Translations under genes and position numbers: made by a program
Part shown: positions 96-60,429 of the stretch, in pieces
Numbering within the stretch: position 1 is the first letter of the stretch
How the letters are laid out: each line of letters opens with the position of its first letter
The notes under the pieces: model-generated
Databases searched by the model: none
What the model saw: the letters and a program-made list of their open reading frames with translations, nothing else
Told to the model about the DNA's origin: nothing
Assembly: GCA_011037195.1 (NCBI GenBank)
Contig: JAAEAF010005122.1
Location: 57,539-121,538 of the forward strand
Origin: Triatoma infestans
Lineage: Eukaryota; Arthropoda; Insecta; Hemiptera; Reduviidae
Direction: 5' to 3'
Length of the DNA: 64,000 nt

Positions 96-1440
96 TAAAG
101 TGGGGCAGCTGGGGAGCTTTGTTTTGGGTGGTGACATGATGGCTAATCTTTAACGTTTATTCCATTCACTGATTATTTATTGATTTCAGCAAGGAACTGT
201 AAAGCATATCTCTAGAGACTAACTAAATCAAATATCTTTATTGTTTAACCTTATAGAACGGTTTAATTCTGATTGTCCTCTTCCAGAATTAGTATTGTCC
301 TGATGAGGACCGATCACCGGGTCGGAAAGCTCTGATGAAGTACAGGAACAAGAGAATACTGCTCGTTTATTATTAAGCACTATTTGTTTCAAATAGTAAT
401 TTAGGTTTTTTTTTAGGTAATTGCTGTAGAGAACTAACTCTAAACAACGTTTATATTAATGCATTTTTGTATCCAGATTTTTTTCCATTAAATTCTCTTA
501 AATAGAAATAATAATAATAAAAGAAACATTTTAATATAATTTTTGTTGAGTTGATAAAACATTGAAAGTAGTTTTAATAGAAAATTATTGGCAGTGACAT
601 ACGGAATATGCTGCCAAAGCATTTAATATATTTATATTTTTTTTATTTTATTCAGTTTAAAAAGGAAGTAATAGGAGTATTTTTTTTTTTTAATTTGTAT
701 TTCTTTATATCTAGATGTATAATATTATGATGATTGTATGAAGCAATTAATTAAAAAGAGGAAATTGTTATTAAGAGGAAGCCTCAAACGAATTAATTAC
801 AAATTTCAGTTGATAATTTTAATATATGTTAATAAAATATGTATTTAATTCACACATAGAAGAATATAAAACTATGTACTACTATAACCAGGTTTTAAAT
901 ATTATTCTTCAAGAAATTAACACAAACAATCTCGTATTTCTTTGTTATTGAGTCAGTTCTAGCCAGTTAGAAAAAGAAATAAATAAATAAATATATTATT
1001 TAGAAATTAGTTAAGATTTTAGGTCAGGATGTGTTAATTAAAAAAATAAAAAAAAATCAATGTTTCCCTAAACGTTCCGGTTCTCCAAAAGGCCAAATTT
1101 ACTTTTGTTTAAATACAATTATACTAGTTGCAATAAACTTTCTTCAAAAAACATTAAGCAGGCCATAAACATTAAAGGCATAGAAAACGTCAACGCAGAT
1201 TTTACATTAAGATCAAACAATAATAACGCGGAGACTCCTGTGTTCTCCGCTGCCTGTTACATTTTTTTTTTTTAGCGTGAACAAGTAAACAAACTGAACT
1301 AGTTTCTGGTAAATGTGTTTTATTGGTATTTCGAATTTATTTACATGCTCTTCGTTACACATAGACTACCCTCCCACCACTCACCCCACCCCCTCCCACA
1401 CACCCACATCTGTCCCCTGTCACCAGGCTCGGTAACGTTT
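96..1440. other. AT-rich noncoding stretch
   Basis: I see no gene here. There are homopolymer A and T runs and short microsatellite-like stretches, and stop codons are dense in all frames. The only structured element is the hammerhead-like motif at 300-332. The ORF opening at 1315 runs into the short family B insertion and is not a gene. Confidence 0.6.
300..332 (+). ncRNA. Hammerhead-ribozyme-like motif
   Basis: The segment has CTGATGA at 300-306, then a hairpin GACC/GGTC with an 8-nt loop, then GAAA at 325-328, then GCTC. AGCT forms a palindrome like the short stem III of hammerheads in Penelope-like elements, and UC would be the cleavage site. AGTATT (291-296) can pair with AATACT downstream (about 354-359) as an outer stem I. 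Weak points are a G-G pair at the base of stem II and poor pairing next to the core in stem I. No second copy was seen in the window. Activity is inference. Confidence 0.35.
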
Positions 1441-1527
1441 GTTGTGGTGGTTGGTTCCGCAGAGCTGGAAAGCATCAGAGACATTTTCCGTGGTAGCCTG
1501 CTTCATTTTGTGGTCATCTGTCTCTGA
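1441..1527 (+). repeat. Family B inverted-repeat element, short deleted copy
   Basis: This 87-bp copy starts GTTGTGGTGGTTGGTTCCGC and ends TGTCTCTGA, so the long left end is fused directly to the short right end. It is flanked by the 12-bp duplication TCGGTAACGTTT (1429-1440 and 1528-1539). The internal part with the hammerhead-like core is absent. The flanking duplication confirms the true element ends: GTTGTGG on one side and TCTCTGA(T) on the other. Confidence 0.85.
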
Positions 1528-1792: not shown

Positions 1793-2232
1793 TCATCAGA
1801 GAATTGTCCATAATAGCCTGCTTCTTTTTGTGGTCATCGACCGGTTTCAGGCGTTCGCCCATCATCAGGATGCGTTTGTCAAACAGTGTGATAACACAGA
1901 ATTGCACAGAGAAAATTCAGTTTATACACTCATACATATTTGAGCTCATGAGCTCATTTAAACTCATATACATTGAGTTAATGAATTTTGCGCAAAACAT
2001 TCGTGTCTTATACGTTGGAAATACTTAGACAGAATACCAAGTTTGCACATGTCATACATATATGAATGTATAACTGAATTTGCTCTGTGCAAGTCTTTGT
2101 TATCACGCTGTTTGACAAACGCAACCTGATAATGGGCGAACGCCCGAAACCGGTCGATGACCACAAAAAGAAGCAGGCTATCACGGAAAACATCTCTGAT
2201 GCTTTCCAGCTCTGCGGAACCAACCACAACAA
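1793..2232 (-). repeat. Family B inverted-repeat element, long copy with internal sequence
   Basis: The two arms are about 180 bp and inverted, flanking about 120 bp of unrelated DNA (roughly 1945-2060). The short end TCATCAGAG is at the left and the long end CCAACCACAACAA at the right. The flanks carry a 14-bp near-perfect duplication, CTATTTTCTCTATA (1779-1792) against CTATTTCCTCTAAA (2233-2246). Each arm has a hammerhead-like core on opposite strands. The minus-strand core (1835-1872) has canonical CTGATGA, a GGCG-type hairpin, GAAA and CCGGTC. The plus-strand core (2126-2160) has CTGATAA and would be dead. Short ORFs here are shadows of the repeat. Confidence 0.85.
1835..1872 (-). ncRNA. 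Hammerhead-ribozyme-like core in family B left arm
   Basis: Read on the minus strand: CATC (stem I), CTGATGA, T, a GC-rich hairpin with a GAAC-type loop, GAAA, CCGGTC, GATG (stem I). CATC and GATG pair perfectly. ACCGGT is self-complementary, so stem III would be 2 bp in a monomer and 6 bp in a dimer, as described for minimal hammerheads of Penelope-like elements. The unpaired T before stem II and the mismatch at its base in this copy are weak points. Activity is inferred, not shown. Confidence 0.5.
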
Positions 2233-2433
2233 CTATTTCCTCTAAATAATTCATACAAATGGAAGGCTAGATTAATAATACTCTGATTCTCTTTTTTACA
2301 AATAATACTGCTTACTCTTATTCCTGTTTAGTAGAAGTATTCTGGTCGTGCCAAATTTTCAAAATTTAGTGCTCACCGAAATTTAGATGTTTTGTGGTCT
2401 CCCTAATATGAAAAAAAAAAATTTTAGCAAATG

Positions 2434-5030: not shown

Positions 5031-5180
5031 TAATTGCGCAAACATCAATATACTTTACAAAAAATAATTAATTGTTTCTTGTTTTATTAAAAAAAAATTT
5101 ACAATTTTTAATAATTTAGTCATTGATTACGAGTCGACTTCCGATCTGAAAGGAGAAAGGTTGGTTCTGATCTGTTCTAA

Positions 5181-5361
5181 TCATCAGAGACATTTTCCGT
5201 GATAGCCTGCTTCATTTTGTGGTCATCGACCAGTTTCGGGCGTTAGCCTATCTTCAGGATGCGTTTGTCAGACAGTGTGATAACACAGACTTGCACAGAG
5301 CAAATTCAGTTTACACATTCATTGATGCTTTCCAGCTCTGCGGAACCAACCACCACAACAA
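5181..5361 (-). repeat. Family B element, right-arm-deleted copy
   Basis: It runs from TCATCAGAGACATTTTCCGTG to CCAACCACCACAACAA, and most of the second arm is lost. CTGTTCTAA(TC) flanks it on both sides (5172-5180 and 5362-5370), a clear target duplication. The remaining hammerhead-like core (minus strand, 5224-5261) has CTGAAGA and GAAA, but stem III reads ACTGGT, so the palindrome is broken. The two overlapping short ORFs here are shadows. Confidence 0.85.
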
Positions 5362-5803
5362 CTGTTCTAATCTCTTCAATAAATTTGTACAATGGTGGAT
5401 ATACATACTGCACCAAAAAAGTCTCCGTATACCAATTAGCTCTTTTCTTTATGACAAATTTTTATACTTTATACACATTTGAATTTCGTTTCTTAAGTAT
5501 TTTCTAATTAGTAAATTAGTGAAATTAATTTTAAATACACTAGTGTGAAAGAATAAAAAGAAATTTACTTTGCGAAATTAAGGCTAAAAGTTGAAATAAG
5601 AAAGAAAATGAAGCAAAGAAATCTCTGTATTCCTTTGATCATAAATTGTTTACCCACAATCTATAACCAATCTCAACTTTCTAGAATATTTTCTTAATCA
5701 AGAGTTGTTGATAAACAGTTTGTATGGCATTTTACATCACTAGATAACCAAGGTTCAATTACCATAACTGAATTTAGTGTTTAGTCTAAATTTAAAAATT
5801 TCA

Positions 5804-10164: not shown

Positions 10165-10960
10165 CACATATTTTTAGCAAATGATCTGTATGTGTACGCG
10201 TGTGTCTGTGTTGTATGAACGAAATAACTCAAAAACTAAAACTGGGAGAAAGTTCAAACTTGGTATACTGTCTAGGTATTTTCAATGTATCTGGCACAGA
10301 AGTTTCAGGCAAAATCCATCAACCGGGAGTGTGACTGTACTCATTTTTTTTTTTTTAGTTTTTCGTGAGTTTTTTGGGGGATTCTGGGGGAGGGGGGATA
10401 GTGGCGTTAAACTTTCCTCTAAAGTACCAACTTCAGTGCAAAGGTATGGTTCTATACCACCTGTTTAATATTAATATACATTAGTAGCAGTGCAAGAATA
10501 TCAAATTCGAGGAAAATCGGTTAACCGGAAGTACGACTTTTGAGTTTTAGAATTTTATCGAAAAATACTATTTCGTTTATACTTGGAGTATTAAGTGCAC
10601 AGATATATAAACATATCACTTTTATTTGAAATATTTGGCCCTCAAAAAAATTAAAAAATTTATTTCAGCAGTTGTGTGGAATTTTGGACAACGCTAAATT
10701 TCAAATTAACTTGAATATGTACAAGTTACTTGTATGCTTTTCTGGACTATAATATAATAACTTTCCTACCTGCCTAGATTACTAGATCGGTACTAGTCCC
10801 CCACCATTTCTATATTTATCTCGAGACATTGTGTAAAATTTGAATTTTAAAAAGAAATTGTCATTTCATATATCTATAATTATTATTGTATTAATAGGAG
10901 GAACAGTGCGAGAAGTTTGTGTAAGTGTTTCACGCCAGATTTTTGATAAAGGATGCGATA
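10165..10960 (+). repeat. Family A repeat
   Basis: Blocks in family order: GT-rich start, CAACCGGGAGTGTGACTGT, GGCGTTAAACTTTCCTCTAA, GGTTAACCGGAAGTACGACT, CTTTTCTGGACTATAA, TGTGTAAGTGTTTCACGCC. The 95-aa ORF at 10181 is derived from it and is not a gene. Confidence 0.8.
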
Positions 10961-14440: not shown

Positions 14441-15085
14441 TATAATTAACATGAAGCACCTTCACTTGTCATGTTCAAAATACAATCTAAATAAAGAATA
14501 ATGCACTGAAATAAATTTACTAAATACAGATACAGATGGCAGCAGTTAGTTGTAAATCTTAAGGTTTTCAAGTCAATGTTTATTTAAAACTGGATCAATC
14601 TTTATGTGTATTTATAGTTTTAAACTCTGCTTAAATTACGATCTGTTCTTAAACTGAAAAATTATACTTTCTTACCGTTTAAAAATATTTGTTATAATTT
14701 TAAAAATGGAAAATTAACTACTTCTACTAAAATGTATAATTTCATTTGTAGTTCCGACACATTAATATTTATTGTTTTAAAAAAAAACATTCTCTTGGGA
14801 AATGCAAGTTAAGTTACTTTTATTCACCTATCATTACATGCATTTCAGATATATGATGCGTGATTATTATAAATTGAATATGAATGTATATCTCTGTATT
14901 ATACGACACTAGATGTGTAATTTCGTAGAAATTGCATTTGATGATTTGAACACGTAGATTTGAGTTCAAACACCATATTTATATTATTATATTCAATCTA
15001 ATATGTTTGTATATGTACGTAACTGAGTGTGTATGTATACCATTCTATTTTTATTCTTGAAATAGTCAAAGATTTTCACTTTTTT
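14441..15085. other. AT-rich noncoding stretch
   Basis: No gene or known repeat recognised. Confidence 0.5.
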
Positions 15086-15290
15086 CTATGATAGGCTGCT
15101 ACTTTTTGTAGATGTCGATCGGATTCGGATATTCGCCCATCAAGTGGGTGTCTTGTTAAACAGATGATAGCTACTAGCGTAGTGCTAAGCCAGGACACAG
15201 GCTGTTATTCTTGTACTGGGCGAATGCTTGAAACTGGACTATGACACAAAAAAAAAAAAAATAAGCATTTGTCATGGAATTAAAGACAAA
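15086..15290 (+). repeat. Family B element, old degenerate copy
   Basis: Left arm traces read ATAGGCTGCTACTTTTTGTA, GATCGGATTCGGATATTCGC and CCATCAAG. The right arm traces read TGGGCGAATGCTTGAAACTG and GACTATGACACAAAA. Divergence is much greater than in the other copies, showing that the family has been active over a long period. Confidence 0.6.
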
Positions 15291-36860: not shown

Positions 36861-36904
36861 CAAAATTACTATTCTTTATTTGTAATTAAGGGTAATTGAT
36901 CAAC

Positions 36905-37203
36905 TTAGATTGTCCAGTAAGATGAGTTTCTCTCTGAAAATGGATTCAGATAAAACTGACTTCCTTCCTGAGAATGTTTGTCAATCTTGTAGTAGCAATT
37001 CCAGCAATGATGTACCATATTTCCTTTTTGAATGTCCAAGGTTTTCAGATTTAAGAAACAGATTTTTGTATGAATTTATAAGTTCTGGAAAAAGTGTGGA
37101 TGATTGTTTTCATGATCTGTTAAATATTAGCGATATCCATAGTTGTGAACCGTATATATTTTTGTTTTGCAAAAGTAGCTCTAATTTATTAAAAAATAAT
37201 TAA
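36905..37203 (+). pseudogene. LINE C-terminal zinc-knuckle-like fragment
   Basis: The frame reads SKMSFSLKMDSD, then ENVCQSCSSNSSNDVPYFLF, ECPRFSDLRNRFLYEFISSG and ends SSNLLKNN. C-x2-C...(H replaced by Y)-x4-C with 'FECPRF..LR' is the motif that closes ORF2 in RNase H-bearing and other non-LTR elements, compare HFLFSCPMFISQR in the 15.5-kb relic. Only this tail is present; RT and RNase H are absent, consistent with 5' truncation. It lies directly after a family A fragment and upstream of a different LINE tail, which is not the same copy because its RNase H domain lies downstream. Confidence 0.6.
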
Positions 37204-37930
37204 TTCTTTATATTATTATAGATTTACCTTTGGTAATTTGCTTAATGTTATCTTGTTCATGTACATTGTAATTAGAAGGCTGCATTCTGTGAAAATTTCA
37301 ACCTTTATTTACCTTTTTTTTTTTTTTTTTTTTTAACGTAGAGTTTCAAGTTTATTAAATGAACGTATTTAATTTTCTATAATAAAAATTTAAATTGGAT
37401 GTTTGTTGCTCTAATAAACAGGCCGAACAGCTTACCATATTAAAAAATCTAGAATGGATGGCAGATGCAGTTTATAGGTACTCATCTAAGATATGCACAA
37501 TTATGACTGATAGTCAGGTGACTCTCTCTTCTGTTGATGATCCTGGCAATCATAGATTCATTATAGAGATGATTCGCAGGCAGCTGAAAACGTTAGCAGA
37601 TTTAGGAGTTAAGGTGATATTTTCCAAGGTCAAGGCACATCATGGCTTGGCAGGAAATGAGGAGGCTGTTTTATTGGCTAAACAAGCGTCGATGGATAAA
37701 GACTTAAATATAAGTTACCATAGAATTCCCATATTCCTACCTGAAAACTAAAGCTTTGGAAGAATCTCTTAATGAATGGGATACATTTTGGCATCATTCA
37801 ACTAAAGGAAGGCATACTTATAGATTTTTCCCTTCAGTTAAACACAGGGTTAAGTACAGTTTTATCAACATCACCAATTCACTTACTGCATTTCTGTCAA
37901 ATCATGGTCCGTCTAACTGCTACCTCAATA

Positions 37931-38201
37931 GTTGTTGTGGTGGTTGGTTCCGCAGAGCTGGAAAGCATCAGAGACATTTTCCATGGTAGCCTGCTTCATT
38001 TTGTGGTCATCGACCGGGTTCCGGGCGTTCGCCCATCTTCAGGATGCGTTTTTCAGACAGGTGACAACACAGACTTGCACAGAGCAAATTATTACACACT
38101 CGCTGGAAGTCTTAACTATAGATGAAGCCTGAAGATGGGCGAACGCCGAAACCGGTCGATGACACAAAATGAAGCAGGCTACCGCGGGAAAAGTCTCTGA
38201 T
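37931..38201 (+). repeat. Family B element inserted in a LINE tail
   Basis: Full left arm from GTTGTTGTGGTGGTTGG, and right arm ending AAGTCTCTGAT. The target duplication is GCTACCTCAATA (37919-37930) against GCTACTCAATA (38202-38212). The plus-strand hammerhead-like core in the right arm (38129-38163) is intact at CTGAAGA, GAAA, ACCGGT and UC. The minus-strand core in the left arm (38008-38045) has GGAA for GAAA. Short ORFs across it are shadows. Confidence 0.9.
38129..38163 (+). ncRNA. Hammerhead-ribozyme-like core in family B right arm
   Basis: CTGAAGA, then T, then a GGC/GCC hairpin with a GAAC loop, GAAA, CCGGTC, GATGAC. All core positions that can be checked (C3, U4, G5, A6, G8, A9, GAAA, UH) agree with the hammerhead consensus. 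Stem I on the 5' side is disturbed in this copy (GAAGC for GCATC), so this copy may not cleave. Confidence 0.45.
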
Positions 38202-38458
38202 GCTACTCAATAGATTTCATTTAGAGCCAATCCATTTTGTCCCTGTTCACCGTATAAAATCCAAGATTTTCACCACATACTATACGATTGTCCACTACAT
38301 GAAGCAGAGAGATCCAAACTGATAGAATCTATTGTCTTGAAGGGATGCAGCTGGCCACTCCCAGAGTTTGAATTAATTAGGGAAGAGAACATTGACAGCT
38401 TCGAAATTTTTACCCATAAAGCAATCAATAAATTAAAAGTGTTAAATAAAATTAAATA

Positions 38459-38984
38459 AAGTGTTAAATATTTTAGTTCTCGCCTGTTAAACTTATGTAT
38501 TTTCTTTTGTCTGATTTTCTGCTTTCTGAAGCAGTTTCATTTCTGTGTTAATTATGTACATTAATTTCTCTATTTTTGTTTCTTTTATTTTGTTTATGTT
38601 TCATTCTTTTAATTTATCTTTGACTTGTTAATAGCTAAATAGCTAATTATATTACATGTAATATCGATTGATGAGACATGTAGATTTTAAAAATAAATAA
38701 AAAAAGAACGTATTCAAGTAACTTTACTAAAATAGTTTTTAGTATTATTGTTATTATTACTTTCAATTTATATTTGTATTCTTATTACTTTTCTAAAAAT
38801 ATCACTAGAATCTAAGATTTATTATTGCTTAGTTACTTTAGAGACATCCTAGGTGTGAAATCCACTCCCTTGCGACAAGTATATGGTATCACTTAATATG
38901 CAGAAATAAATATCGCTATTATTCTTTCTTTGTATAATATTAATACATTGAATGCGATCTTAAAATCTTGATTGTGGAAAGTAG
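38459..38984. other. AT-rich noncoding stretch
   Basis: Contains probable LINE 3' UTR and AT-rich DNA. No gene. Confidence 0.45.
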
Positions 38985-43357: not shown

Positions 43358-44583
43358 TACGAGCGTCATTCAATAAGTAACGAGACAAATCGCTGTAGCT
43401 CAGAAACGATTTATTTAATCAGTACAAAACTTTGGCTACTTTTCAGCTTAGTCCCCAGCAACATTTATTCACTTATCCCATCGTTTGTGTATACCTCTGG
43501 CATAAAATTCTTTGGGTTGATCTCGAAGCCACTATTGCATCTGATTTTTAACTTCTTCATTGGATTGAAAATGTTTCCCACGTAGAACTTCTTTAAGGAT
43601 CCAAACAAATGGAAGTCCGATGGGGCGAGGTCGGGGCTGTAGGGGGAATGTGGAAGGATCGCCCATTCCACTTTTTGAAGTGTTTCTTGAGTTAACTGTG
43701 CCGTGTGTGGGCGCGAGTTGTCATGAAGCAAAATCACGCTCCCAGTCAAGAGTCCACGCCGTTTCGTTCGAATGGCAACCCTTACTTTGTTTGTGAGCAT
43801 ATCACTGGCTGTTGATGGTTTATTAATCTTCGAGATAGTCACAATAAATAGGCCCCTGCGAATTCCAGAATACTGTAAGCATGACTTACCTACACACGGC
43901 TGGGTCTTGAATTTCTTTCGAGTGGGAGAACCCGTATGCTTCCACTCAAGGCTTCGACGCTTAGACTCCGGCTCAAAATAGTGAATCCATTTTTCATCAC
44001 ATGTTACAATTCTACTGAAAAATTCTTTTTCTGTTAAACATCGCTCTTTCAATTGTTGACTGATTTGAAACCTGTTTCTTTGTAGGCATTCGTAAGCTTC
44101 TTGGAAACCGTCTCGCATAAGTTTTCTTGTACTGCAGCTTATTCTGAATAACGTTATGGATAAATTAACGCGAGATTCGAGGGAGGAAGTTGCAACTTCA
44201 ACCGGTCGACCACTTCGTTGCTCGTCACAGACTTTCATACGGCCACTTTTAAACTGTTCTACCCATTTGTAAACGTTTGAACGGTTTAAACAATTATTAC
44301 CGTACACTTTCAACATTCTTTCGTGGATTTCACTACCTTTGATACCCTCTGCAACTAAAAATCTAATAACTGAACGTTGTTCTTCTAAAGTGCAATGCTC
44401 GAGCAGTCTCGCCATTGTCAACTGAATACATATGAGGTTATGATTACCAAATACTCTCGAACAGCTGATGAGAAATTAAGTACAAGGATGCCAACTTGAC
44501 GCACTAAAACTATTGTATTGTTTAAAAAAAAACGTTTCTGAGCTACAGCGATTTGTCTCGTTACTTATTGAATGACCCTCGTA
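43358..44583 (-). mobile_element. mariner element, complete ends
   Basis: The 1222-bp element (43360-44581) is bounded by TA on both sides (43358-43359 and 44582-44583). Its inverted terminal repeats start CGAG(C/G)GTCATTCAATAAG and continue AACGAGACAAATCGCTG over about 50 bp with two mismatches. This is the standard mariner structure with TA target duplication. It is slightly shorter than the usual 1.3 kb, consistent with an internal deletion in the gene. Confidence 0.93.
43465..44415 (-). pseudogene. mariner DD34D transposase, long but defective ORF
   Basis: From the ATG at 44415 (MARLLEHCTLEEQRSVIRF) the ORF is about 316 codons against roughly 345 for the family. Residues 1-80 hold the two helix-turn-helix DNA-binding parts joined by an SGRPVE linker. 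Catalytic aspartates are visible in VTCDEKWIHYF, ILLHDNSRPH and YSPDLAPSDFHLF, with 34 residues between the last two. The middle (LSITLFRISCSTRKLMRDG) does not fit the family and marks a deletion or frame shift after residue 90. The last 25 residues (INPKNFMPEVYTNDGISE) are out of frame compared with the copy at 4711-4902, where the end reads RWDKSINVAGDY. A functional enzyme is therefore unlikely. Confidence 0.88.
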
Positions 44584-50021: not shown

Positions 50022-50290
50022 TTAATGGTTGTGAGAAGGAGAGAGAGAGAGCGAATTAGAAAGAATGTATTTAGGAAAATAGAAATAAACTAGATGATAT
50101 GCTGAACACTGTATAATGAATAGAACACACAAACTGCAAGGACTATACAGTAAAATAGAAGTTAGGTATCGAGAGAAATATAAAGAGACAGACTGGCTGA
50201 TAAGAAGGTATTAGATAGGCTGCTGACTGGTTGTACTGCTGTAAAACGGTCGTAAACTGTTGTAATATCACTCTATTTACTTATACATAA
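50022..50290 (-). mobile_element. Family C LTR-like fragment adjoining a LINE
   Basis: Matches the 3' two-thirds of the unit at 7494-7841 and the copy at 29300. On its right it joins the broken end of the RTE-like LINE. At the other end of that LINE (52505-52515) the strand reads TGTAATGGGAACC, like the start of family C. This suggests that the LINE inserted within a family C copy, with loss of DNA, or that the ends were exchanged. Confidence 0.5.
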
Positions 50291-50770
50291 AGTTGCCTGC
50301 TTGAAGTCTATGAAGATGTGATGTAGATCTATGTTATACTCATAACACTTTTCGTGCATTGTTCTCAGGGCAAAAATGTGATCCGACGTTGATCGATTTC
50401 GGCGAAAACCAGGCTGATAATCGCCCAATATCCTGTCTGAACACTGGGTTAACCGTTTAGCAGTCAATTTTGCCATCACCTTATATACAACGGGCAGCAA
50501 CCGTATGCCACTATAATTTTCACAACAGGTTCTATCTCCTTTCTTAAAAAGCGGACATATTATTGCCACTGACCATTCGTCCGGCATCCTTTCCTTGATC
50601 CATATATCCAGTATTAGATCATACAACTTATCCCAGAGTGCTTCAACTCCTAGTTTTAATAGTTCCGCTACTACCCCATCAATACCTGCTGCTTTATTGT
50701 TTTTTAAGGACATAATTATTTCCAATATCTCTTCTTTCTCTGGATAATCGACGAAATCCTCATTTAATCT
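50291..50770 (-). pseudogene. RTE-like LINE reverse transcriptase, N-terminal part only
   Basis: After the frame shift the reading is DFVDYPEKEEILEIIMSLKN, NKAAGIDGVVAELLKLG, PLFKKGDRTCCENYSGIRLL, KRLTQCSDRILGDYQPGFRR and RSTSDHIFALRTMHEKCYEY, ending FIDFKQA at about 50301. These are RT blocks 0 to 3. The YXDD-bearing block 5 and everything after it is missing. The trailing TLCISK is flanking DNA. Because LINEs normally lose their 5' end, loss of the 3' end points to a later deletion or recombination. Confidence 0.85.
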
Positions 50771-52146
50771 ACCGCTCTCTCCCTTGGTGTTTCGCCTAGT
50801 TCTAAAACTTTATCACGCATATTCAATAATTCGTCGAAATACTCGGCCCATCTATTTCTTACTTGCGGTGCCCCTCCTATGAATGCTCCGTCCTTTCCTC
50901 TACAAAAATCCACATATGGCTGAAATCCTTTTTTCTCTGCTTTCAATGCAGCATAAAACTCTTTTACTCTATTATAATCTCCATCCTCCTCCATCCTCTT
51001 TATCTTCAATTGTTCGAATTCTCTCTTTTTCCTTCGACTTATTTTGTTAGCCTCTTTTCTTTTTTTCTTATATTCCTCAACATTTGATCTTGTAGCTCTA
51101 ATCATCATGATCATTCTAGCTTTTTTCCTCTCTTCCAATTTATTCTTACTTTCTTCATCGAACCAGCCATTTCTTTTAACCTTTCCCTCTTTTCCTACGG
51201 CATTCTGCACGGATGCGACAATAGCTTTCTTGATAAATTTCCATTTTTGATTTATACCATCTCCTTCCACCGATTCTAGGCCTTTCGTATCTCCTAAATT
51301 CTTACTCAGTTCCGTTTGATAATCTACCTTGCTTTTACTATCTATTTTTAATTTGGTTAAATTCCACTTATCTATTTTCTCAACTTTCTGTTGCTTAAAT
51401 TTTGAAATTCGCTGCTTATATTTAATTCGCACCAAATTATGGTCTGAATCACAATCTGCCCCTTTGCACCTTCTCACGTCATATATATCCGAAGCGTGCC
51501 TTATATCAATCATTACATGATCAATTTGATTTTTTGTTAATCCGTCCGGTGACGTCCAGGTTTCCTTATGGATGTCTTTGTGAGAGAATTGTGTACTGCT
51601 TGCACTCAAATTTTTTGCAATAGCAAAATCAATAAGCCTAATTCCATTTTCACTGCTTTGCTTGTGCAAGCTATTTCGGCCTAGAAATGGTCTATAGCAT
51701 TCTTCCTGGCCCAACTTCGCATTGAAATCCCCTAATACTATTTTAACATCATTTTTTGGGAGGCCGTCATACAGCATCTCAAGCTCTCCGTAGAATGGGT
51801 CCTTCACATCTTCATCCTTCTCTTCAGTCGGAGCATGCACATTTATCAAGGAAATATTAAAAAATCTATACCTCATTCTTAGAATAGAAATACTTTCGTT
51901 ATAGTTTTGAAAATTCATCACCATAGACTTAACTTTATTGCTTATGACAAATCCTGTGCCGAAATTTCCATTAATGCCAGCGCCATGAAAAATTATATAA
52001 TTTCCCGTTTTGAATATTCCCTTATCCTTCCACCTAACTTCCTGAAGAGCTGCGACAGCAATGTCATACCTCTCCAACTGATCTATCACTTTTCTCAATG
52101 CCCCAGGTTTACTTAGACTTCGTACATTCCAAGTTGCTAACCATGT
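50764..52146 (-). CDS. RTE-like LINE apurinic endonuclease and linker, long open frame
   Basis: The frame is open for about 460 codons, from TWLATWNVRSLSKPGALRKV (52146) to a stop at 50764. It continues a little further upstream in frame, so no start is certain. Residues 1-230 form the endonuclease/exonuclease/phosphatase fold: the N in WNVRSL, E in ALQEVRW, GTGFVI, NVHAPT, D and N in VLGDFNAKLG, and the closing SDHNLV are all present, so the nuclease could be active. Residues 280-400 are a K/E-rich linker likely to form coiled helices (KNKLEERKKARMIMM). It is separated from the RT part (50725-50291) by a one-base frame shift near 50767. It is the longest ORF in the window. It nicks target DNA for retrotransposition and is not a host gene. 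Confidence 0.85.
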   Translation of the reverse strand, partial: TWLATWNVRSLSKPGALRKVIDQLERYDIAVAALQEVRWKDKGIFKTGNYIIFHGAGINGNFGTGFVISNKVKSMVMNFQNYNESISILRMRYRFFNISLINVHAPTEEKDEDVKDPFYGELEMLYDGLPKNDVKIVLGDFNAKLGQEECYRPFLGRNSLHKQSSENGIRLIDFAIAKNLSASSTQFSHKDIHKETWTSPDGLTKNQIDHVMIDIRHASDIYDVRRCKGADCDSDHNLVRIKYKQRISKFKQQKVEKIDKWNLTKLKIDSKSKVDYQTELSKNLGDTKGLESVEGDGINQKWKFIKKAIVASVQNAVGKEGKVKRNGWFDEESKNKLEERKKARMIMMIRATRSNVEEYKKKRKEANKISRRKKREFEQLKIKRMEEDGDYNRVKEFYAALKAEKKGFQPYVDFCRGKDGAFIGGAPQVRNRWAEYFDELLNMRDKVLELGETPRERAVD

Positions 52147-52515
52147 GTAGTTTCCAGATCCTCGCCTATGTCGTACCTTTTTAGACGTCCTATGATTACT
52201 TTTTGGTTTCTCAACATACTAGTTTATTTACAAGGTTGGGTTGTTAGCCCCACGTTCTCAACCTCCACATCCTTGGAGGACCAGGGATTTTTGGGGTTTA
52301 CTCCCCAAAAAACTTAGGGGCGGGTAACCCTAAGGTGTGTACTGTTAATGCCCTTGAGTATTGTGCGAATGGAGTTGAGTATTGTGTAGTGTTTGGTGTA
52401 CTGTTCTGGTGCTTGCGCCTAGAGTACTGAGCTGTGGTAACCCGGGGGGGTCACTACTCCCCAAGTGGTTGTACGCGTCAACCACCCCTTGCGGGGAATT
52501 CGGTTCCCATTACAA

Positions 52516-60005: not shown

Positions 60006-60308
60006 TCATCAGAGACATTTTTCGTGATAGTCTGCTTCATTTTGTGGTCATCCACCGGTTTCGGGCTTTCGCCCGTCTTCGGGATGCGTTTGTCAGACAG
60101 TGTGATAACACAGACTTGCACATAGCAGATTCAGTTTACACACTGAATGGTCTGTGCTCTGTGCAAGTCTGTGTTATCACACTGTCTTGACAAACGCATC
60201 CTGAAGATGGCGAACGCCCGAAACCGGTCGATGACCACAAAATCAAGCAGGCTATCATGAAAATGTCTCTGATGCTTTCCAGCTCTGCGGAACCAACCAT
60301 CACAACAA
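60006..60308 (-). repeat. Family B element, both arms nearly complete
   Basis: TCATCAGAGACATTTTTCGT at the left, GGAACCAACCATCACAACAA at the right, with arms inverted about a centre near 60140. The right-arm core (plus strand, 60197-60234) is the best in the window. The left-arm core (minus strand, 60049-60086) has CCGAAGA and a G at the cleavage site. No convincing target duplication was found. The 75-aa ORF is a shadow. Confidence 0.85.
60197..60234 (+). ncRNA. Best hammerhead-ribozyme-like core in the window
   Basis: Stem I CATC, core CTGAAGA, a hairpin T-GGC-GAAC-GCC-C, core GAAA, palindromic stem III from ACCGGT, cleavage site UC, stem I GATG. Every invariant hammerhead position is kept. 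Stem I beyond 4 bp is not obvious, and the U-C pair at the foot of stem II is unusual. A 2-bp stem III would be unstable in the monomer, but ACCGGT can pair between two molecules, as proposed for other minimal hammerheads. Confidence 0.55.
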
Positions 60309-60429
60309 CTATTGCATAGGCACTTATAAATGAGATCGGCCAAGTTCATAAAATGCAAAACAAAAAATTGTGCAGCACTCCAGCTTGAAAAAGTATTTGA
60401 AATGAAACTGGTAGGCTCATAAATTGGGA
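60309..60429. other. Short spacer
   Basis: No gene. Confidence 0.4.

Follow-up and report, generated by a model that had tools for sequence, protein, structure and literature searches.

Our results indicate that the inverted repeat under study is, judged from its sequence, a known kind of element, a Penelope-like element (PLE) with inverted pseudo-LTRs (pLTRs), represented by an unusually large number of pairs that lack an ORF. Each arm of the repeat is the 5' part of a PLE and comprises a leader, a minimal hammerhead and an ORF start of 35 codons. We consider it probable that reverse transcription is primed by both target strands close to the 5' end of the PLE RNA and that the two cDNAs are joined head to head, a minority of them appearing to stop at the predicted ribozyme cut.

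The analysis covered a window of 64,000 nucleotides, which is the whole stretch of DNA shown here, together with loci (L numbers) retrieved from the source assembly, a eukaryotic genome of 941 Mb in 13,959 contigs. The original prediction had listed several copies with inverted arms and defined outer ends. BLAST bore out both features on the copies of the window and found the named copies again with slightly shifted coordinates (1439-1527, 1794-2233, 5179-5362, 37931-38204 and 60007-60309), and a match near 15082-15290 corresponds to the decayed copy that had been placed at 15086-15290. The individual arms are collected in Table 1.

Table 1. Copies of the repeat in the window and the duplication flanking the focal insertion. 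Arm positions (ref 1-170) are numbered on the hammerhead-bearing strand, after copy L014; the predicted cut lies between ref 90 and 91.
Feature	Position in window	Strand	Ref positions	Basis and remarks
Focal copy, tail arm	37931..38100	-	171 to 1	BLAST to reference arm, 95-97% identity; tail spans about 37931-37966; core damaged; cut predicted between 38011 and 38012
Focal copy, second arm without tail	38128..38204	+	60 to 138	Stem I missing; predicted cut between 38157 and 38158
Focal insertion, left duplication copy	37924..37931			Exact 8 bp, CTCAATAG
Focal insertion, right duplication copy	38206..38213			Exact 8 bp
Tail arm starting exactly at predicted cut	1439..1518	-	91-170	BLAST
Second-arm remnant	1519..1527	+		9 nt, TGTCTCTGA, ends at tail-less site; arm match by eye
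440-bp copy, second arm	1794..1923	-	7-136	BLAST
440-bp copy, tail arm	2072..2233	+	8-168	BLAST
Second arm	5179..5317	-	3-139	BLAST
Tail plus few arm bases	5323..5362	+	132-171	BLAST
Second arm	60007..60144	-	1-136	BLAST
Tail arm	60155..60309	+	16-171	BLAST
Decayed copy	15082..15290	not assigned		About 75% identity where aligned

Both cores of the focal copy are damaged. Its left arm, on the minus strand, has GGAACCCGGTC where GAAACCGGTC is expected, and the right arm has lost stem I through its start at ref 60. The final base of the left duplication doubles as the first base of the arm. With the flanks joined across the duplication, the insertion site falls within an uninterrupted open stretch, and its surroundings read like the 3' part of a LINE ORF, a label assigned by eye; the host region, 36886-38500 (+), was named by eye as a LINE-like RNase H and C-terminal region. 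The best core in the window, at about 60197-60234, has a stem II that is one base short. In the 440-bp copy the two arms are separated by other repeat sequence, and another interspersed repeat of the window (1977-2048, 2523-2589 and 10252-10323) has one of its copies between these arms. Elsewhere in the window, a 336-codon open frame at 43465-44475 (-) has by eye the look of a mariner-type transposase, and two overlapping open frames at 50273-52218 (-) that of a LINE endonuclease and reverse transcriptase. A scan for viral-contig patterns gave 0 matches.

The arms are very abundant. An exact 25-mer covering ref 108-132 occurs 12,477 times in the assembly, against 0 for the reversed control, and an exact 27-mer covering ref 91-117 occurs 11,081 times. 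Among the 192 distinct arms from the window and the retrieved loci, some of which were chosen by biased searches, the 3' ends form two clusters, at 134-136 in 66 arms and at 168-171 in 87, as for a pLTR with the optional tail of 30-40 bp that characterises PLEs. One arm of a pair bears this tail, here 35 bp of the PLE, and the other stops at the tail-less site; the asymmetrical end described in the original prediction is the stretch between the two places. One frame is open for 35 codons; it begins with an ATG (ref 67) where stem II starts and reaches the end of the tail. The predicted cut falls 24 nt past this ATG, and the cDNAs would start at about +69 and +104. Immediately 5' of ref 1 stands TCAGTT or TCAGTC, which we take to be an arthropod initiator.

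The connection with PLEs is made by loci in which more of the ORF is preserved. At L066 a 1.37-kb reverse transcriptase/GIY-YIG frame, truncated at both ends, lies between two arms and is flanked by an 11-bp duplication. It scores 35.1 bits with RVT_1 (cut-off 29.6) and 19.4 bits with GIY-YIG, which is below the Pfam cut-off of 22.6, and the piece ends inside that domain. The best match is an uncharacterised protein of Rhagoletis pomonella (LOC118734935; 44% identity over 100% of the length), and 124 proteins were found at E 1e-10, several with RVT_1 plus GIY-YIG among the best 120 of the 124. L011 was read from the tblastn matches within residues 1-457 (P0001). Here the ORF is preserved at its endonuclease end and is followed by a stop, roughly 600 nt of 3'UTR and then an arm, and the opposite end carries 17 nt of an inverted arm that starts at the tail-less site, both as read by eye. 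The sequence upstream of the L011 arm is common to L009, L081, L096, L097, L098 and L102. The ORF with reverse transcriptase and GIY-YIG endonuclease expected of a PLE is represented by the piece at L066 and by its endonuclease end at L011, and is absent from the focal copy; among the retrieved loci, no full-length PLE was recovered in which an arm reads on into the remaining ORF.

The hammerhead is recognisable in the majority sequence of the arms, which contains CTGANGA, stem II, GAAA, CCGG and TC. The originally predicted core holds for this majority sequence and for a second family, and fails for the focal copy, whose own cores are both damaged. Two of the checks proposed along with it were negative: the Rfam hammerhead models had no match in the window, even at E <= 10, nor in loci L014 and L107, and copies are conserved no better at the core positions than over the remainder of the arm. 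Such flat conservation fits dead copies and is not evidence of selection. Matches to Rfam microRNA-type models were under their gathering scores and reflect the long hairpin, and a microRNA precursor was rejected. Since ACCGGU is self-complementary and forms the sole helix III, without a loop, a dimer is implied, and this minimal type I hammerhead should act as one. Minimal PLE hammerheads of that kind have already been described (PMC7761336, PMC6155905), and a minimal hammerhead lacking helix III, with the ORF starting at stem II, is what we find here at the level of sequence. The second, diverged PLE family (L013 913-977 and L056 215-316) retains CTGANGA and GAAACCGGTC. In a comparison that involves two families only, L013 shows paired changes in stem II, with GGAU/AUCC where the first family has GGGC/GCCC; its two inner stem I pairs are U-A and C-G instead of C-G and U-A, and the third pair of stem I is lost. 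Stem II of L056 is imperfect. The frame of the second family, translated by eye, begins with MDEYPKPV and continues later with ATTDK, in place of MGERPKPV and ATTEN.

Target duplications were above threshold in 31 of 39 copies, among which L024, L026 and L035 appear to represent one duplicated insertion, against 1 of 192 mismatched flank pairs. Their length varies from 8 to 15 bp and is mostly 12-13 bp. Four copies of the window had been predicted to be flanked by duplications; of the 5 tested copies 4 are above threshold, including the copy at 1439-1527 with 12 bp (TCGGTAACGTTT), and the copy at 60007 falls below it (8 bp, one mismatch). The variable length supports target-primed reverse transcription, as originally proposed. 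A cut-and-paste or MITE transposon, for which one fixed length and matching ends would be expected, was rejected given duplications of 8-15 bp and unequal ends. Four loci (L024, L026, L027 and L028) have near-identical flanks, and one interior is common to three of them, that of L024 being different; this would be expected if a single insertion was duplicated and part of its palindrome was lost later. L029 and L035 resemble this group by their arm positions or duplication.

How do the inverted pairs arise? We propose that an arm is reverse-transcribed from roughly the first 175 nt of a PLE RNA, which would consist of a leader that starts at or near TCAGTT, the minimal type I hammerhead and the first 35 ORF codons. 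The PLE protein would cleave both strands of the target, and each end would serve as a primer within the 5' part of the RNA, so that copying would start at the end of the tail (ref about 170) from one of them and at the tail-less site (ref about 135) from the other. The cDNAs from these two putative rounds of copying would reach the 5' end of the RNA or stop early; their head-to-head joining, in many cases with filler or captured sequence between them, would leave two hammerheads in opposite orientation. Most template RNAs would run from the putative transcription start, and a minority from the hammerhead cut. We read 76 head-to-head pairs, two of which are repeats (L055/L012 and L048/L015), and in 71 of the 76 the tail arm is paired with an arm whose end lies at 133-141. 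Inverted head-to-head pLTRs combined with short duplications of variable length are typical of PLEs. The sequence between the arms includes pieces of the PLE ORF (L066, L012) and other DNA (L067, L072). At L059, L067 and L072, 186-770 bp of other DNA lie between two cut-ended arms; that of L072 is 91% similar to an adjacent inverted stretch, and that of L059 is itself an inverted repeat with a piece of tail inside.

Self-priming, in which the strand of a PLE folds back and copies itself to give the second arm, has been proposed for the inverted Penelope structures of Adineta vaga (PMC3846280). It would also give the variant at ref 51 that is the same in both arms of 30 of the 31 informative pairs, an observation that points against priming by two strands or is neutral to it, and would fit the shared non-majority bases, which amount to 0.53% of the compared sites within copies and 0.09% between copies. 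However, the outer ends differ in most pairs, one having the tail and the other none. In 15 of the 76 pairs the tail arm falls short of its tail-less partner by 10 nt or more at the 5' end, so each arm has sequence that is absent from the other and neither, as it now stands, can have been copied whole from the other. Moreover, L056 and L062 join one arm that reaches the putative transcription start to another that starts at or beside the cut. Later deletions could explain some of these cases: deletion within a palindrome can shift junctions and mimic unequal arms, as L024 and L026 suggest with the same flanks and different interiors. On balance we regard self-priming as unlikely. It is still harder to see the inverted pair as a transposable unit that multiplies whole, whether fold-back, MITE-like or a non-autonomous retroelement. 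The fixed outer ends and the thousands of copies would suit such a unit, which is what the original prediction took each copy to be, but junctions and fillers vary among copies with different flanks, duplications range from 8 to 15 bp, and single arms exist, some of them joined to the PLE 3'UTR. Among the copies read, a small part of all, no junction and filler was common to unrelated sites. We consider this reading very improbable; on the evidence, the copies are more likely to be products of a PLE that has its ORF at another place in the genome.

Priming by both target strands, our preferred account, allows for templates that begin at the ribozyme cut, and about 3% of arms start exactly there. 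A search with the copy at 1439-1518 returned many arms starting at ref 91; since it favours an A before that position, no frequency can be measured from it. Two less biased samples, which overlap in L079-L108, gave 2 of 42 arms at ref 91 (the window plus L079-L108) and 2 at the cut among 69 arms with a measurable end out of 74 taken in genome order. After removal of one end that fell at a run of N, 18 usable genome-order ends remain between 20 and 107, and 2 of them are at the cut (p=0.018 under a uniform model). The excess in these samples is modest. Genome-wide, a purine precedes the 27-mer at ref 91 in 255 cases, against 210 at the control position ref 98, a weak comparison because point changes form part of both counts. 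When 20 sites were fetched for each position and classed by eye as truncation or as point change or small deletion, true truncations made up 11 of 19 informative sites at ref 91 and 6 of 20 at ref 98 (p=0.11), from which about 148 and 63 truncations are estimated genome-wide. Cut-ended arms are a minority, and a comparison of ref 91 with one control position is weak evidence.

The two arms of a pair tend to share such an end. Of the 13 pairs whose tail arm starts at 88-91, 9 have a partner that does likewise, whereas among the 63 other pairs such a partner occurs 3 times (p=9e-7), and for exactly ref 91 in both arms the counts are 6 of 12 and 4 of 64 (p=7e-4). Most of the cut-ended pairs belong to the ascertained sample, although selection there was by the base before one arm and not by the partner. 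By hand count, arms truncated elsewhere have a partner ending within 3 nt in 1 of 14 pairs, a set that omits L053, L059 and L062. The starts at ref 91 may reflect some other stop or breakpoint, such as a second transcription start, pausing of the reverse transcriptase at a structure, or repair; truncations do occur elsewhere, as the sampled sites at ref 98 show, and cut-starting arms are few in the genome-order sample. Against this, the position was predicted beforehand from the hammerhead core, and the partners of cut-ended tail arms share their end far more often than those of other arms, including arms truncated elsewhere. Three of the six truncations at ref 98 have, by eye, a partner whose own end lies at or beside the cut. 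We would give such a stop a real but minority chance. The arms that start at the cut are a possible genomic trace of ribozyme cleavage in vivo, and a genomic signature of this kind was not found in print in searches of open-licence literature, most of it screened without full text. Their pairing raises a further idea, which we put forward with some doubt, that the PLE hammerhead is a pairing device: two RNAs would be held together through ACCGGU as a dimeric ribozyme, would travel to the target as a pair and would offer one template to each cut strand, and since cleavage would cut both RNAs, cut-ended arms would occur in pairs.

The closest relative in print is Penelope of Adineta vaga. Its description (PMC3846280) reports head-to-head inverted pLTRs, an optional tail of 31 bp on one of them, a 9-bp duplication in one case and 8-10 bp in several copies, a pLTR that spans the first codons of the ORF, and solo pLTRs with captured unrelated sequence between them, all as in the present repeat. 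In Adineta vaga, however, the ORF is usually inside and copy number is low, whereas here there are thousands of arms and many pairs without an ORF; the word 'hammerhead' does not appear in the text of that paper. Hammerheads in PLE pLTRs are on record (PMC11167929, PMC7761336 and PMC6155905), and with these reports the original suggestion of an undescribed system has to be given up. In the Poseidon PLE of Anolis (PAc; PMC11167929) the ORF likewise begins at stem II of the hammerhead, the distance from the ATG to the cut is 26 nt compared with 24 here, and reverse transcription starts 111-118 nt into the ORF compared with about 69 and 104. PAc resembles our element in its AC-rich start of reverse transcription and in having the tail between two internal start sites, 30-40 bp in that case. 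The PAc enzyme cleaves and extends both strands in vitro, and insertion in vitro does not need hammerhead cleavage. In contrast, the PAc repeats are in tandem and ours are inverted, and RNA-seq showed no ends at the PAc cut, whereas some genomic copies here start at it. Metazoan retrozymes (PMC7229834) share the small non-coding repeats, the type I hammerheads and the longer duplications, but are direct tandem repeats that yield circular RNAs, unlike the inverted arms seen here, which carry the start of a PLE ORF. A retrozyme was rejected on the inverted arms and on finding no direct tandem array of a 150-450 bp unit in the window.

These observations bear on how PLEs insert and on why they retain hammerheads. 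Thousands of short insertions in one genome constitute a natural record of where reverse transcription starts, how its products are joined and which sequences are captured, and a minority of them also record stops at the predicted cut. If this last point is upheld, the use of a ribozyme in vivo could be counted from a genome sequence, and the same check could be applied to other genomes with young PLEs. If the hammerhead does serve to pair two RNAs, the ribozyme cleavages that accompany PLE insertion would have left a record in the genome that can be counted.
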